This document shows positions 3,191 through 50,115 of a DNA stretch of 64,000 nt, piece after piece (the first letter of the stretch is position 1; each line of letters begins with the position of its first letter). The DNA comes from Cristatella mucedo (Eukaryota; Bryozoa; Phylactolaemata; Cristatellidae). The notes below the pieces were generated by a model that was not told where the DNA came from, ran no database searches, and saw only the letters and a program-made list of their open reading frames with translations. Location of the stretch: NCBI GenBank assembly GCA_009760855.2, contig WPIO01000015.1, positions 4,791,001 to 4,855,000 of the forward strand, given 5' to 3'. The position numbers and the translations under genes were made by a program.

Positions 3191-3362
3191 AAATAATAAT
3201 AACACACTTGATAAAGCGCCCTCAGAGAACTCAATCTCTTTCTAGGCGCTTTACATTAACCGCAAAGGAAACGCGATGCGATGGTCAGTGGTAGCATGCT
3301 AGCAGCTAAACAGAAAGAATAGCATGGTTAGGGGTGACTTGCATAGGGTCAGCATGCAAATC
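3191..3362 (-). mobile_element. LINE family A 3' tail, 5'-truncated
   Basis: (ATT)n tail, the AAAGCGCC...GGCGCTTT stem-loop and 3' UTR signatures ('GGTTAGGGGTGAC', 'GGGTCAGCATGCAAAT') on the minus strand. It contains only 3' UTR. Confidence 0.9.
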
Positions 3363-3489
3363 ATTGACAGCAATCGCGGGCGCTTTTCCACTAATGCAAC
3401 GAAGAGTTGTCAGCCACCATTTCGAGGCCTTGTCCCTCTGCCGGCTTCTCTACTCGAACGCCGGCGACAGCTTGCGGCTCCGAGCTCGT

Positions 3490-3620
3490 ACAGACAATGG
3501 CGGTCCGCTGCCGGAAGTGGGAGCCCGCGTCCGTGCGTCACTTTGTCTCCGACAAAATTGGACGCGTGCGTGCCTAAAGTTCGCAAGCGTCCAAGGCACG
3601 CACGTAATCTGAAAGTAAGT
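3490..3620 (+). promoter_or_regulatory. Candidate promoter and first exon with splice donor
   Basis: A GC-rich island between LINE fragments. ACAATGGCGG at about 3494-3503 matches a YY1 site and a good start context. CCGGAAGTG at about 3510-3518 is an ETS consensus. GAAAGTAAGT at 3611-3620 is a strong donor-like sequence. The frame from the ATG near 3497 stops after about 26 codons (M-A-V-R-C-R-K-W-E-P...), so if transcribed this may be a 5' UTR exon. No protein family is recognised and no downstream exon is visible. Confidence 0.3.
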
Positions 3621-3703
3621 GGTAGGAATGTAACAATCGCTAAACCAAAGGGCGACCAATGCTAGCCAATAGCAGCGAAGCCCGCCTCACATTACGTTGC
3701 ATT

Positions 3704-7260: not shown

Positions 7261-8329
7261 GGTATAATGCATTCCAAAATTCCTATGGAACGACACTTAT
7301 TTTCCCACTGCCGACTATGGCACATCTTTTACAGCCGTCCTGAGCTGCTGCTTCCATGCTACTCACTTCCTCAACTCATGACTCAGCTGTACTTTCGGAT
7401 TTAGCATTTTTGCATGAGATGGCGACTTTGGTAACCATAGGCGTAGCCAAAGTGACGTAAGCGTCGAGTTCGCTGTAGAGAACTCTTCATCGTAATACCC
7501 ACATAGGCTTTGTGCCTCGGAGTCACAGGCAGAGGTAAGATAGAAAACTTTCCGCAGTGATACCACTCGGTCTTCTAGACTTTGTGGTTTACAGACGAAG
7601 CACAGGAATGATATATATGCATATATAAGCAAAAAGTAGTTGCACTTGCAAAAAGTCAAAAAATAAAAGCGATATTATCCGGTGAAGCTAAACCCATGAG
7701 CCGGAACGAGGGGTGATAGTTATACAGCTCCTTCGTTCCTACAGATGCATAGTGGACATATTAACGGCTCAGGGAGGGGGCGGATTTTGCTACAGAGGCC
7801 AAACTTTGACACTTTCGTCTGCCATCTGAAGAAACGATGTAAGGTCGCAGAGACAGAGGTCGAAGTCACGCAGTCGCTTTCTTGCTTGACTTTAGGACAT
7901 TCTGAGACATTTAGGACGTGACAGGGCTGCGCTATTTCCTTAGAACGATGCAAGCTTAATGTGGAGGTTTTGGTCCAATGAGCTTTTGAGGTCGAATGCA
8001 AAACCTCGACCAGGGAATCGATCAATTTCTCGATAAACTTCGCCTAATTTCTAGGCCTCGGCGAGAGCTTTAATCGTGAGGCTTTAATCGTTGCTTCAAG
8101 TATTTCGCTAACATACGAGTCGGTAACAGTGTTTCGCTAGGATATTTTGGACTGGGCCACCCTAATTCTTAAACTAAAGCCTAGATAGGCAACTTAAGAG
8201 CGTTCAATACTTAGAGACGAACGGCATTAAGTGCACTGGAAGCGCCTCTTAAAAAGTCTCGGCAATCATTATCGACCGCCCCTCCAGTTCTCAGGGACGG
8301 TTCTAACTTTGAACCAAGAGTCCGAGCCT
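7261..8329. other. Unique sequence, no recognised gene
   Basis: Open minus-strand frames at 7363-7659 (98 codons) and 7720-8025 (101 codons) show no recognisable domain. A short AT-rich stretch lies near 7608-7630. No repeat family seen elsewhere in the window is evident. Confidence 0.4.
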
Positions 8330-8458
8330 ATGGGCAAGGTGCCCGCAAGTCGCCATCCGGGCTACGGGTTAAAGTCCTGCAGCAAGCAATTCTTTATCGC
8401 CCGCTGCAAGCGCTAGTCGCTCAGGCTCTTCTGCAGCTGCATAAATGAGGCTGCTGAA
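8330..8458 (+). mobile_element. SINE-A, 5'-eroded copy
   Basis: The head is degraded ('GGTTAAAGTCCTGCAGCAAGCAATTC' in place of the B box region). The body 'TTTATCGCCCGCTGCAAGCG', 'GGCTCTTCTGC' and the 'AATGAGGCTGCTGAATA' end match SINE-A. A better copy follows immediately in the same orientation. Confidence 0.7.
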
Positions 8459-8638
8459 TAATGGCACACCAGGTAAGGCGGTTGCTTTCACGACCTCGGT
8501 CCCGAGGTCGTGGGTTCGATTCCTGTGGTGGGCGATCCCTTATCGCCACTGCAAGCGGTGGTGATAGCCGTAAAGGCTCTTCTGTCGCTATACAAAAAGA
8601 GGCTGTTTAAGCAGCTAGGATTTTTTTTTTACATTTTA
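8459..8638 (+). mobile_element. SINE-A, well-preserved copy
   Basis: A near-complete copy: ATGGCACACCAGGTAAGGCGG head (A-box-like), CACGACCTCGGTCCCGAGGT hairpin, GGTTCGATTCC B box, body with 'CACTGCAAGCGGTGGTGATAGCC' and 'AGGCTCTTCTGTCGCTATAC', the AGAGGCTG...CAGC segment and a T-run. It lies in tandem with the eroded copy to the left. Confidence 0.88.
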
Positions 8639-8764
8639 CTTATGGCTTTTACCTCGATTCGGCCCCGCCTTTCTTGAAAGGATAGTTTCAAACGGGTCGG
8701 GATTTTCCGTCCACGTTACAGATAAATAAAAATGCGCGTCCGGTCGGCTGAGTCATACAGGCCA

Positions 8765-8930
8765 ACTTGCTATTGGCTCGCGGCTGCCAAAGTTTTGGGG
8801 AAAACCAGTACGTCACCCCGCCCCCTAGCGTCACCCCACCCATTTACGTCAAGAGTTTATGACTCACACGCCCGACCCCAGTTAGAAGGGGCGGAGTTGG
8901 TGGCGTGTACGCATTTTCATTGGACGAGGC
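8765..8930 (+). promoter_or_regulatory. CCAAT/GC-box/CRE promoter cluster
   Basis: Within 170 bases there are two inverted CCAAT boxes (ATTGG at 8772-8776 and 8919-8923), CGTCACCCCGCCCCC at 8811-8825, TTACGTCA (half CRE/ATF) at 8844-8851, and GGGGCGGAG (GC box) at 8888-8896. No TATA box is evident. The mix is typical of GC-rich animal promoters and lies 170-330 bases before the BH3-containing ORF. Confidence 0.5.
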
Positions 8931-9095
8931 TTTGCGTCTGCCCGGCAGTCGTAGGGACCCTGCCTGCAAGGGAAAGTCCCGGGGTTTTCCTTGCTCGGTG
9001 TACTTGCCCCGCGGAATCGCTCTCAGACGTGATAGTCGCCGCTTCGACGAACCGACGCTACTATTGGAACGCGAAAAAACCCGCTCGGTGCCGAG

Positions 9096-9326
9096 ATGTG
9101 TGCACCGCGTACTACGTCTGGCGGCGGCAAGCCAGTCGACGAGCGCAGAACCCCTGAAGGAGCTCCTGTCAGCGACATGGCCGTCGTCGCCGAGATCGCC
9201 ATAATGCTGAGGGGCTTGGGTGACGAGCTGAACGGCGCGCGCGCCGCGTCATCTTCGCCGAAAGTTCGGCTTCGCCAAGCAGCGTTTCCTCCGTCGGCAG
9301 CGACTGCAGAGCATCGACAACGCTGA
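9096..9326 (+). CDS. Candidate BH3-only pro-apoptotic protein
   Basis: A 76-codon ORF with in-frame stops upstream at about 9030. The first ATG has G at -3. A second in-frame ATG at codon 28 (GACATGG) is a stronger start. Residues 34-46 (9195-9233) read I-A-I-M-L-R-G-L-G-D-E-L-N. This fits the BH3 pattern of hydrophobics at h1, h2, h3 and h4, the invariant G-D, and the trailing Asn seen in Bim. In the family, such a helix binds the groove of Bcl-2/Mcl-1 proteins at the mitochondrial membrane and triggers apoptosis; the small size and lack of other domains fit BH3-only proteins. There is no C-terminal membrane segment. The flanks are Pro/Ala/Arg-rich, and the GC-rich setting produces chance frames on both strands, so the call rests on the motif plus the upstream promoter cluster. 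A further exon is possible. Confidence 0.5.
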   Translation: MCAPRTTSGGGKPVDERRTPEGAPVSDMAVVAEIAIMLRGLGDELNGARAASSSPKVRLRQAAFPPSAATAEHRQR

Positions 9327-10424
9327 GTGAGCCGGCGACATCAATCGGCAGCTGAATTGAAATGGCGACGGCTCGCTGTCGTTGCCGACGACCCGACGGC
9401 AGCAATAACCTTTAGCGACAGCTAAGTGAACTCGGCACCTTAGTAGGCTTTCGCGAGTGCCGAGGCACGGCCTCGAGCGGCTACGCACGACCTGCGTGGC
9501 CGAAGGCCGGCTTTTGGCACCGCTTCCGGTCCCGATTTCGACGCCTGTCTTATTGTGGCATTTGCACCCCATCTGCGTCTGGTGAATCCATGCTGAGGCT
9601 CGGCCTTCAGGATCCATCAGCGCTGAATTGATTGGCGGTGTGGCCAGTGGCGGAGCTGTCAGTGGCCGATGACAGTGACAGCGACAGCGACAGAGTATGG
9701 GATCGAGTGCTCTCCATGCCTGCCTGCTACAGCAGGCATCTTTGGATGACTTCAGCACGACCAGTGAACGCTGGGTCGGAAATGTAAGCGCGCAGTTCAT
9801 GAAGCTCTTGCGCATTCTAACAATCCGAATGCCTGGATCTCGATGTTATAAGGCTACTCGGAAGTAGAGAGGAAGCCCACGAGTATATCTAAATAAAAAG
9901 TTATTGGGGCTCTGTGTTTAGTATCGATATGACAGCCTTGCTGTCGTTTGCAAATGGCAGACAAATACGAAGACAGGGAAGACAGTGCGTATCCGCACTT
10001 GCTAATTGTGAGCTGCATGCTAGCTCTCGAGTGCTTAAATTTCGGATGCATGCTGGGAAAGTGGCCCCTGAGTTCCCTGCTCCTTTGCATCACCTGGGAT
10101 CGATGCCAGCGTTTTTGATAGCCGGGCATTGTCTGTTTCATACTGTCCTCAGTTTCAACATTGGCAATCGGAACTAGGTCGTGACCGTGTCGCAGGACGT
10201 CTTTGCGGGTTTGTTACTTGAGTGCCTTTCTGGCTCACCCTTCACATCATCTCAAAGACAGAAGGGTAAGCCAGAGCCAGTGCATGATCTCGACTTTGAG
10301 GTCACTGGTCGTTCATATGTTTACAGGCATATTTGTAGTGCATTGGCATGTATAGCCGTGCATACAATGTACTCAAGGCCTACTTATGGAGCCTTTCGGG
10401 ACACTCTCGCTCTCTCTATCGCTT
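9327..10424. other. GC-rich then unique DNA, no further gene supported
   Basis: The first ~500 bases stay GC-rich. An acidic Ser-Asp repeat reading without its own ATG lies near 9670-9700 plus and could be exon material of the 9.1-kb gene, but no clear splice sites frame it. The 188-codon minus-strand frame at 9249-9815 looks like a composition artefact. No repeats are recognised. Confidence 0.4.
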
Positions 10425-13444: not shown

Positions 13445-14440
13445 ACTACCGACCCATATTAAAACCTCAAATCTAGCAAGTGCATTCCAGTAGTCAAGTT
13501 TTAGAGCAGACCGCTCTGCAGAGTCAGCGCTGCTTCGAGTGAGCGACCTCTCAAATAATGTCGACTCGGGTAGAGTCCCTCGGCTAGTTCTACTGGATCT
13601 CGCGGCTGCAGCTTTTGCTACCTTTTATCACGTATTCCTGCTTGAGCATCTATCACCTTGCATAGGCAGCACAGGAATTGCATTACTGTGGACTAGGGCT
13701 TATCTCAACGGAACATTTCAGAGTACTGATGTCAACGGCCCCGGGTGTTCTAGCGAGTCTTTAAATCACTAGCTATCCCAAGGATCTCTCCTAGGCGTGC
13801 TTCTTCTTAACGATTCGCACTCTCAATATTGCGAATGTGAAAATAAAAAAACCTAGCTGATTAAACAGCCTCTTTTTGTATAGCGACAGAGGAGCCTTTA
13901 CGGCTATCGCCACCCCTTGCTGTAGTGATATAGGATCGCCCACCGCAGGAATCGAACCCACGACCTCGGGACCAAGGTCGTGAAAGCAACCGCCTTACCT
14001 AGTGTGCCATCACTGCTCACCTATCCAAGCACAATTTTGGCTTTCTTTAGAATGCAGATAGCACACAGCTCTCTGTCTGTGCTTTGCCAACCGGCCTCCA
14101 CCTCAAACTCAATCAAATCCCTGTTCTGCAGCATGTATTGCTTACATTTGCACTTAGATGGCAGCAAAGTAAACTTGATCGAATTAAGTGACGAAAAAAT
14201 CAACCCAATTCGAAAACCTAGTGCTACGCCACAAACGAAAAGATAACTTTCAAAATGGGCTCGGCTAAAATATCTCTAGAAGTCTCTGCACCGAATCTGG
14301 GTGTCCTGTTCGAAATGGTCTTTCACTGCCAGACCCCATCTAGCTGGCAGTCAGGCTCGCCCATTTTCAGCTCGGCAAAACGGCAAAAATGCAGGCCCGA
14401 ATTGTTATCAGGCTGTTAGCCTGCTTCAGCTCGTCGACGT
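13445..14440 (+). mobile_element. LINE family A reverse transcriptase, split by a SINE
   Basis: The left part (to about 13840) encodes eroded palm motif A, 'LVLLDLAAAAFATFYHVFLLEHLS', and 'SQGSLLGVLLL', a worn GVPQGSVLG. The right part (from about 14022) resumes at the 'KHNFGF..YADDxQ' position and continues to 'KSAHFQLGKTAKMQARIVI'. The SINE-A at 13842-14020 therefore inserted into this LINE. Numerous stops; no 3' end. Confidence 0.82.
13842..14020 (-). mobile_element. SINE-A nested in LINE
   Basis: A minus-strand copy with the full set of SINE-A blocks: tail, CTAGCTGATTAAACAGCCTC, GGCGATCC body, GAATCGAACCC antisense B box, the GACCTCGG/CCAAGGTC hairpin (one mismatch), and the head CCTTACCTAGTGTGCCATCAC. 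It interrupts the reverse transcriptase. No clear target duplication survives. Confidence 0.88.
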
Positions 14441-47348: not shown

Positions 47349-49436
47349 ACATCTTAACTACGAAAGTCTAACAGAGTTCCTTCGTCCTTAATCGAACGTT
47401 CCTATGGCAACGAAATACAAGTTGAAGCTCGTGTGTCAAATCGTGTGTTAAATCTCCCGACTTCCGAGTGTTGACTCTTTGCCGAAGGTGAGAAAACGTT
47501 GACCACTTTCAAACTGTTCGGCTCGATTATCACTAGAATGCAAGATATATGCTCAAATGTAATGTGTATCACATATGTATCACATATATTAAAAAAGTTG
47601 CCCAGACGATTTTACGTCCACATTAAAGAGGCACTTAGCCCACCCAGGCAGTGATGCCAACAATAGCAGGCCGAGTGGCAAGTCTGCCGCCGACTGATGC
47701 CGCCGCCGCACACCAGGCCGGTACCATACACAGCAGAAGCTGTTGTGAAATGCCACTTACCACAGGCCCTGGCTGAAGACGATAGCAAAGAATACCAGAA
47801 GTCAAACACGTGTCCAACTCGCACAGCAGCCACAAGCTAGCCAGCTAGTGAAGCTGGCAGAACTGTCCAGGCGGACGGCGAAGCAAGACGGCTTCGTGGG
47901 ATGACTAGAGGCATACACAGGGCGTTCGCTCTGGCACTCGGGCGAAAAGGGGGCGGCAGCAGTGCGTGGTTGTGCGGAGCTCGTAGAGCGCGGAAGCCGC
48001 CAGGCTTGGTATCTGCTGAACGAGTCGCAGTTTCGGACCAGGCGGCTCGAAGCCGCCGCTGCTCATCATCGTGCTGCGCCGCACAGTACTCGGTCCTGTA
48101 TGCACATGCTCACTCCTCGGGGTCGTGTCTAGCTACCTGCGGCTAAGCAAACAGGGACCAGCCGTGTAAACACGGAACCATTAACCATCGAGACCCCCGG
48201 CCGGGCTGTGCGCGCTCGTCACGGCAGTCAGCCGGAACTGCACACTTGTGTATATGCAGTTGCCCCTGGTGACTATAGTCTCCGGCTGACCAAGACGGTT
48301 ATTGATCACGATAGCCGAGAGGCTGCGGTCATGGCCACGAAGCCCACTGCTCCGACCACAGCCGTCCAAAGCAGGCCCTTCCTGATGCCGTCTTCGAGAG
48401 CGGTCGGAGAAGGAAAGTGGTCCACGAAGGCATCCTGCCAAACGATAACGGTGCACTGCCTGACTAAGGATAACACCGGATGCACTCATGCACGCGTGCG
48501 CACACACCACACATGGTTGACTGCGAGCGACGGCAGTGATGCATTGAACCAAAATGGGAATGTATGACTGTCCTATGGGGCTAAAAGCAGTAGCCAGCTC
48601 TCCTCCGGGCCGCAGACGCACTGCCCCGAACAGGTTAGCCATGCAAGTGGTCGGGGCAGAGCAGCAAATGCAACTGAAGCACGATCCGTGTCCAGCAGAA
48701 CCCACCCCCACATCGCGTTCCACAAGACGAGTCCAGGGCAGCCACAACAACACGAGCGCGACAATGCATACAACTCTACCAGCCAGCAGTCCACAGTATC
48801 CACCGCCGTGCTCATGCAGACCACCTTCAACCAGCTTGAATGTGTCTACAGTTCGGCCAGCAATAAACGCCTGTCTGGTGTCTCGTGCTGCGATTTATCT
48901 CATCTTAATCTCGGCTACCCTACTTCTATCCTACCAACCATACTTACCTATCCTCTACCTCTTCCGTCTTAGCCTCTTTCCTTGACTCTTCAATGAGCAC
49001 ATAACCCGCAAGTTATTTCATAATTTGTCGTGATTTCCCCCCTCTCGCTTTCGCTCCCTCGCTCTTTTTCTCTCTAGTTTCATCTCCTTATCCAGCTCTC
49101 GAATTCTTCCGTCATTTTCATTCATTCTCCAGCCCTCTCTCTCTCTCTCTCTCCCTCGATCTTGTATTCTCCAGCCCTATCTCTCCCCCACCTTATTTTG
49201 CTTATCTCTTATCTGTCACGCTCTTTCGATTTCTCCGCTCCTTTTCTCTTCACCACTTTTCCTTCCTCTCTCCCTACGATGGTCACCCGAGAACGCTAAG
49301 CCGCCGGCCAAGCGCGAGGGTCGCGGACGCATGGGGCACCATCGCCGGGATCTCCGCGGTGGATGGCTGCGGCCTCTCGCTCTTTAAGCGGCGCGTCGCT
49401 CAAGCGGCAGCGCTCGCGCGGCGCCTCCTCACTCAC
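47349..49436. other. Presumed intron or downstream DNA of the Bcl-2-like gene
   Basis: On the minus strand this follows the GTGAGT donor. It holds a pyrimidine-rich plus strand (about 49020-49275) with (CT)n at 49134-49152. I looked for a short exon continuing BH2 plus a membrane anchor and could not identify one. Large open frames (48181-48753 minus, 48554-48985 plus) have no known domain. Confidence 0.4.
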
Positions 49437-49928
49437 CCAGTCGCCGAGCTGCTCGATCTTTCCGCCCAACCTCTTCTCCACGTAATGGCCGACCGCGTCA
49501 GCCAGAGCGTCGTCGCCGAGCATGTCCTCGTCGCGCCGCTGCTGCACTACGCGCACTAGCAGCGCGTAGATGGAGCAGACGCGGCCCCAGTTATAGACGC
49601 CGTCCTCGAACATCTCATCGATTATCTTGGTGAGCACGACCGGAGTCGACGCGTCGCTCCAGTTGTCGCTCGACGCTTTCAGCTTCCTGACCATGCTGGT
49701 GAACACGATCTCGTGCCTTGCCAGAAGATCGTCCACGACCCTCTTCATCGTCTGCACGTACTTGGAGTTCCATCTGGGCTCCCGGCCGCAGGCGTAGTCC
49801 ACCATGGCGCGCGCAAGCCTCACGGCCTCGTTCTCCACCCGCCGGCGAGCGGGCTCCGATTTGCCCTTGTAATTCGGCCATCGGACGCCGTAGTTCTCTC
49901 CGGGCACTATCATTCCGACGGCGTCCAT
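49437..49928 (-). CDS. Bcl-2 family protein, Mcl-1-like, first coding exon
   Basis: 164 codons from ATG at 49928. Residues about 57-83 resemble the BH3 helix of Mcl-1, with M-K-R-V-V-D-D-L in place of L-x-x-x-G-D (Gly to Val), then a long amphipathic helix ending in MVRKL. Residues 105-118 carry BH1, with F-E-D-G-V-Y-N-W-G-R-V. Residues 148-164 align residue for residue with the first half of BH2 and end at Trp164. The codon TGG is followed at once by GTGAGT (49436-49431), at the Trp where many animal Bcl-2 genes have an intron. The missing exon should hold the rest of BH2 and a membrane anchor. Known members bind BH3 proteins and guard the mitochondrial outer membrane; the NWGR motif does not by itself separate guardian from killer. 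Unspliced, the frame runs on to a stop at 49296 giving 210 residues without an anchor. Confidence 0.85.
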
Positions 49929-49930
49929 CC

Positions 49931-50115
49931 TTCTCGGTGCCTTTTTTTACGTTTATCTGAGCACGGACGCAGCGGCGACGGACGAAGCCCCACCCGAAGT
50001 ACAATGGCGGACTTGTGGGTCACAGGATGGTCTTTATCGGCTTCCTCGCGCATGCGCTCTTCGCGAGCTTCGTGGCTTAAAATAGCTACCGAGGGGAGGC
50101 GGGGCGGCGGTGCGG
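49931..50115. promoter_or_regulatory. Candidate promoter of the Bcl-2-like gene, possibly bidirectional
   Basis: GC-rich, CpG-dense DNA just upstream of the minus-strand ATG. GCGCATGCGC at 50048-50057 is a perfect palindromic NRF1 site. ACAATGGCGG at about 50002-50011 matches YY1 and also starts a plus-strand frame (M-A-D-L-W-V-T-G-W...) of about 50 codons. GGGGCGG lies at about 50099-50106. CTATTTTAAG-like sequence (minus) at about 50078-50087 could act as a weak TATA. The reverse-facing ATG suggests divergent transcription. Confidence 0.45.

Follow-up and report, generated by a model that had tools for sequence, protein, structure and literature searches.

A BH3-like 13-mer in a short open reading frame behind a promoter-like CpG island of Cristatella mucedo is probably a chance resemblance

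A stretch of 64,000 nucleotides of Cristatella mucedo DNA (the window; the host genome comprises 572 Mb in 688 contigs) contains a short open reading frame (ORF) in which 13 residues resemble a BH3 helix. The frame lies in a CpG island behind a cluster of promoter-like elements (Table 1). We consider it probable that the resemblance is due to chance and that the frame is carried within some transcript of the island. The alternative that first comes to mind is a genuine BH3-only gene, compact and driven by AP-1 and CRE elements, with a frame of 49–76 residues that would serve as a candidate stress input to mitochondrial apoptosis. We regard this as doubtful, and the evidence for and against it is given below as it arises.

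Table 1. Positions of the features discussed in the text, numbered from the first nucleotide of the window.
Feature	Position	Strand	Remarks
Promoter-like cluster, AP-1/CRE half/CCAAT/GC	8749..8923		exact-match scan
Isolated CpG island	8701..9800		GC 0.59, CpG o/e 1.17
76-codon ORF	9096..9326	+	ATG 9096, TGA 9324-9326
Most coding-like open 29-codon window	9162..9248	+	11.9 bits; six frames of 8400-10300
Alternative start Met28	9177..9326	+	G at -3, G at +4
BH3-like 13-mer IAIMLRGLGDELN	9195..9233	+	residues 34-46 of the 76-aa ORF
Possible poly(A) signal AATAAA, T/G-rich stretch behind	9892..9897	+	weak evidence
Open frame with Bcl-2-family exon	49299..49946	-	PF00452, 6e-15

The initial annotation proposed a Bim-like motif in a short ORF with a clean upstream stop. 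The motif lies exactly where it was placed, and the stop is present as an in-frame TAG at 9033-9035, the frame being open from 9036 and giving a product of 76 aa. The only plus-strand ATGs within 8860-9180 are those at 9096 and 9177. Both are in the frame of the ORF and share it with the motif, which speaks for a gene. A start at the second of them, Met28, would give a product of 49 aa with the BH3-like segment near its N terminus. In 10% of 5000 trials, island-like random DNA gave an ORF that began with ATG and was 76 codons or longer. The motif IAIMLRGLGDELN has the invariant Leu and Asp and the hydrophobic h1–h4 positions of BH3, and it was fair to say that it matches every key BH3 position, although its helix is less amphipathic than that of Bim.

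By itself, the motif is no evidence of a BH3 protein, because its frequency is at the background level. The 9-residue core pattern, LxxhGDEhN, occurs 17 times in the 572 Mb of the genome, and the reversed pattern likewise occurs 17 times. When all 17 core-pattern sites were inspected, only the candidate combined an upstream Met in frame with surroundings that are rich in GC (0.62) and in CpG. We scored 13 of the 17 with a matrix built from 14 human BH3 peptides, leaving out two sites with almost no upstream open frame and two whose motif was interrupted by a stop. The highest score of the 13 was that of the candidate (17.5), followed by sites at 16.5 (with a proline in the helix), 14.7 and 14.6. 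Its rank and its setting among the core-pattern sites both favor a BH3-only gene. The score also falls within the leave-one-out range of the 14 human BH3s (6.3–30.3), and it is the best in 264 kb of real sequence, where the runner-up reached 15.5. The counterweight is the number of equally good matches to be expected: 60 Mb of simulated DNA gave 28 matches of at least 17.5, which corresponds to 0.030 per 64 kb and to about 267–270 per genome. If the candidate is indeed a chance product, its value is one of calibration, showing that a BH3-like 13-mer of this quality is expected hundreds of times in a genome of this size.

The position of the motif changes this estimate. In simulated DNA of island-like composition, we found 46 matches in 117 million positions, 16 of them with an in-frame upstream Met. 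The chance of an equally good motif was about 2.5e-5 per 76-codon ORF, which argues for a gene. The number of chance cases genome-wide would be about 0.2, assuming 20,000 promoters, with both the promoter number and the ORF size taken as assumptions. For features that were picked post hoc, it is therefore moderately surprising to meet such a motif in the first ORF that follows a promoter-like island. The site is unusual only in the combination of a motif, a promoter-proximal ORF and locally coding-like codons, and these were combined after looking.

The coding evidence for the ORF is mixed. Over all 76 codons, the synonymous codon score was -13.3 bits, which is inside the null distribution (p 0.085, or p 0.24 when the motif is left out), and 2 of 42 chunks of kinase exons scored as low as this. 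The parts of the ORF before 9168 and after 9254 had synonymous scores of -8.6 and -11.0, respectively. In addition, GC3 in the ORF is the same as GC2 (0.62 for both), compared with a GC3 of 0.85 over 20 kinase exons (4034 codons). Codon use over the whole ORF is non-coding, unlike that of the kinase exons of the same genome, and the non-coding codon choice across the rest of the frame stands against a BH3-only gene. The core of the ORF behaves otherwise and is a point in favor of such a gene: in the motif and 10 codons on each side, a window picked after looking, synonymous choice was coding-like (p 0.003), beginning at about Met28. The most coding-like open 29-codon window contains the motif, and the runner-up, at 7.7 bits, overlaps it on the minus strand. 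Windows from kinase exons had a median of 14.2 bits in the same codon model. The window starting at 9168 scored 10.5 bits; of 5519 open windows sampled in its vicinity, about 1.25% did as well or better. Because the 29-codon model includes amino-acid use, the motif itself lifts the score of the 9162-9248 window.

We compared the candidate with named BH3 proteins. Human Bim (BCL2L11; PDB 2nl9 chain B, with its letters confirmed) is identical to IAIMLRGLGDELN at 8 of 13 positions, and the common positions include the h1 Ile, the small Ala, Leu, Arg, Gly-Asp-Glu and Asn. Noxa (PMAIP1) and Hrk each agree at 7 of 13 positions when the BH3 peptides are compared. These identities support the BH3-only reading. 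Unlike Bim, the candidate has I and M in the places of Q and E, and for this reason its helix is less amphipathic, with a hydrophobic moment of 0.32–0.37 as opposed to 0.57 for Bim. Moreover, it is without a recognisable membrane segment. If the candidate starts at Met28, it would resemble Noxa and Hrk in its small size and in having the BH3 close to the N terminus. Hrk carries a C-terminal hydrophobic tail, which the candidate does not have: no separate hydrophobic tail or membrane anchor was found in the ORF, and the best 19-aa hydropathy (1.36, residues 23-41) overlaps the motif. A simple weight matrix for splice donors found none above the 85th percentile within the open frame, so that joining of the BH3 frame to a tail exon by splicing finds no support. 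The lower amphipathicity, the lack of a membrane tail and the lack of a good donor inside the frame all weigh against a BH3-only gene.

The searches for relatives of the ORF point in the same direction, as they revealed neither a family match nor a second copy. In Pfam, nothing matched the ORF up to an E value of 10, with HMMER filters that drop most matches above about 0.1. By the same search, the ORF is without a second BH domain, as is expected of BH3-only proteins. The profile of the Bim family (Pfam PF08945) did not match the ORF, and a genome-wide search with this profile yielded two weak hits, at E 1.3 and 7.3, both away from the candidate site. In the PDB, the full ORF had a single low-complexity match (E 1.1), and a 26-mer of the candidate matched no chain (phmmer, E up to 10). 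At the protein level, the genome contains no second copy below E 0.56. A search of the genome with the Bim peptide returned no matches and is uninformative, because even the candidate itself was not recovered.

BH3-only proteins are known to act by docking in the groove of their partners and by releasing effectors of the Bax/Bak type. By analogy, a BH3-only gene at this site would use an AP-1/CRE stress promoter to make a short mRNA and a probably disordered protein of 76 or 49 residues, whose BH3 helix would dock in the groove of a pro-survival Bcl-2 protein and thereby free or activate Bax/Bak-type effectors. Such a protein would act like Noxa, Hrk or Bim, and common descent with them would not be needed. 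Nine genomic places match PF00452, including one that lies on the contig of the window, 120 kb beyond the Bcl-2-family frame described below; Bcl-2-family partners therefore exist in this genome, which is in line with a BH3-only gene. Some of these loci look Bax/Bak-like in our own reading of their sequences. The BH3 segments of the genome's own Bcl-2-family members, aligned by eye, score 18.8, 21.8, 7.2 and 5.0 in the matrix, and the candidate falls among them, again in favor of a gene.

One of the nine places lies in the window. The Bcl-2-like gene mentioned in the initial annotation is real, but it is a separate gene (49.3–49.9 kb, minus strand). Its best match in the PDB is Mcl-1 (2.1e-7), and its domain ends in GDW followed directly by GTGAGT, which is the BH2 intron position. 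This position (GGW or GDW, then GTRAG or GTACG) is common to six family exons of the genome, the window exon included. That the ORF belongs to this Bcl-2-like gene was ruled out: the exon is on the opposite strand and 40 kb away, and it has a BH3 region of its own that aligns with the residues of Mcl-1 which we take to be the BH3. The exon 120 kb from the first (L008, G000:C66:4960429-4960731, minus strand) is a second, divergent member of the family, with a BH3-like segment that, aligned by eye, has G in place of the invariant Asp.

The CpG island was defined by windows of 300 bp, a length of at least 400 bp, GC >0.55 and o/e >0.75. It is isolated; the neighboring islands listed are at 3251-3700 and 47651-48900, and there is no other between 3,701 and 47,650. 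Within it, an exact-match scan located minus-strand CCAAT boxes at 8772, 8919 and 9063 and GC boxes at 8818 (minus strand) and 8889 (plus strand). A cluster of CCAAT, GC and CRE elements had been claimed for this region. The CCAAT and GC boxes are there, but of the CRE there are only half-sites: TGACG, read on the minus strand, occurs at 8811, 8829 and 8847, with a spacing of exactly 18 bp. The scan found no full 8-bp CRE. To the elements named before, we can add AP-1 sites at 8749 and 8860. A combination of at least two CCAAT boxes, one GC box and three CRE/AP-1 sites in 260 bp was found at one place only in 264 kb, with thresholds chosen post hoc, after this site had been seen. The three CGTCA half-CREs and the TGACTCA at 8860 make up a small ordered array (8811-8866) resembling a response element for stress or cAMP.

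From these elements we infer that the island would act as a CpG-island promoter of the AP-1/CRE/CCAAT type, at about 8700-9000, and would start a transcript, presumably on the plus strand. The type of promoter would also suit a BH3-only gene. In the reading that we prefer, the ORF is most likely one of the short frames that GC-rich DNA ordinarily contains, belonging to a non-coding first exon or a lncRNA or being an upstream ORF, and it probably does not function as a protein; the likeness of one of its segments to a BH3 helix would be coincidental.

Alternatively, the island might supply promoter and first exon to a different protein-coding gene, in which case the ORF would be untranslated or an upstream ORF. 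Examples would be FBXL5, with a distal non-coding exon here on the minus strand, or a plus-strand gene located downstream, with a 5' exon here. A human query located FBXL5-like coding exons to the left of the window, about -11.6 to -21 kb from its start and on the minus strand; the first coding exon is the one at about -11.6 kb, and the exons are divergent from the island. This arrangement is consistent with such a gene, as are the three CCAAT boxes, all of which are on the minus strand, and a donor-like GTGAGC at 9327, directly after the ORF stop, which scores 0.06 and ranks at the 88th percentile among the GT sites of the window. However, FBXL5 has closer islands, at about -2.6 to 0.15 kb, and the extension of the island rightward of the promoter cluster would fit plus-strand transcription better. 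As to a downstream gene, the 264 kb contained 1300 open frames of 70 aa or more; 22 of these passed a GC3 filter, and none of the 22 is on the plus strand of the window. We consider another protein-coding gene improbable. A second copy of the candidate beside a second FBXL5 was ruled out, as the FBXL5-like exon tested matches once in the genome.

Directly to the left of the island there is a tRNA-like B-box, GGTTCGATTCC, at 8513 (8459-8550), which recurs on the minus strand at 13948 and 41296; the region 8459-8550 is perhaps a SINE. ARAGORN found no tRNA gene in 8300-9400, and Rfam gave no matches over the whole window. An origin of the candidate from a repeat or transposon is not supported, because the DNA of 8640-9920 matches its own genome once, at itself, in a search that skips very common words.

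If the candidate were a BH3-only gene, a lophotrochozoan would possess a BH3-only trigger induced at the level of transcription, of the kind reported missing in molluscs. Its frame would be too short for gene predictors, and the combined use of motif, promoter and codon signals could find other short, fast-diverging BH3-only genes. In a study of bivalves, BH3-only proteins were not detected (PMC3634015), and a study of the oyster states that no BH3-only homologue was identified in the entire phylum Mollusca (PMC5550854). A 2022 survey describes BH3-only proteins as "potentially present" in Lophotrochozoa, and the legend to its Figure 5 gives abbreviations for annelids, brachiopods and molluscs (PMC8998228). 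That figure apparently shows BH3-only candidates from these phyla, which lowers the novelty of the present one. The BH3-only proteins of schistosomes and other Lophotrochozoa that this survey covers (PMC8998228) would come from the same broad animal group as the candidate if the Lox5 evidence is right.

That evidence comes from homeobox genes, in a reading based on 6 of 21 matches. Two Lox5-like genes with KLTGP after the homeodomain and two genes that we take to be Dfd-like lie on contigs C665 and C221, and C665 also carries what is presumably a Post2-like gene (L074-L078). KLTGP is described as a Lox5 signature of lophotrochozoans and platyhelminths (PMC5431905). The host is thus probably a lophotrochozoan, because KLTGP follows two of the homeodomains, and one with some duplicated Hox genes. 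A lamprey, which high GC3 and duplicated kinases had suggested at first, was set aside; queries with a lamprey globin and with a molluscan haemocyanin profile gave no hits, results that carry no weight in either direction. Elsewhere in the window, there are matches to LINE-type reverse transcriptase and endonuclease, and long TA-type microsatellites at 136-468 and 1790-2143 translate as (IY)n frames.
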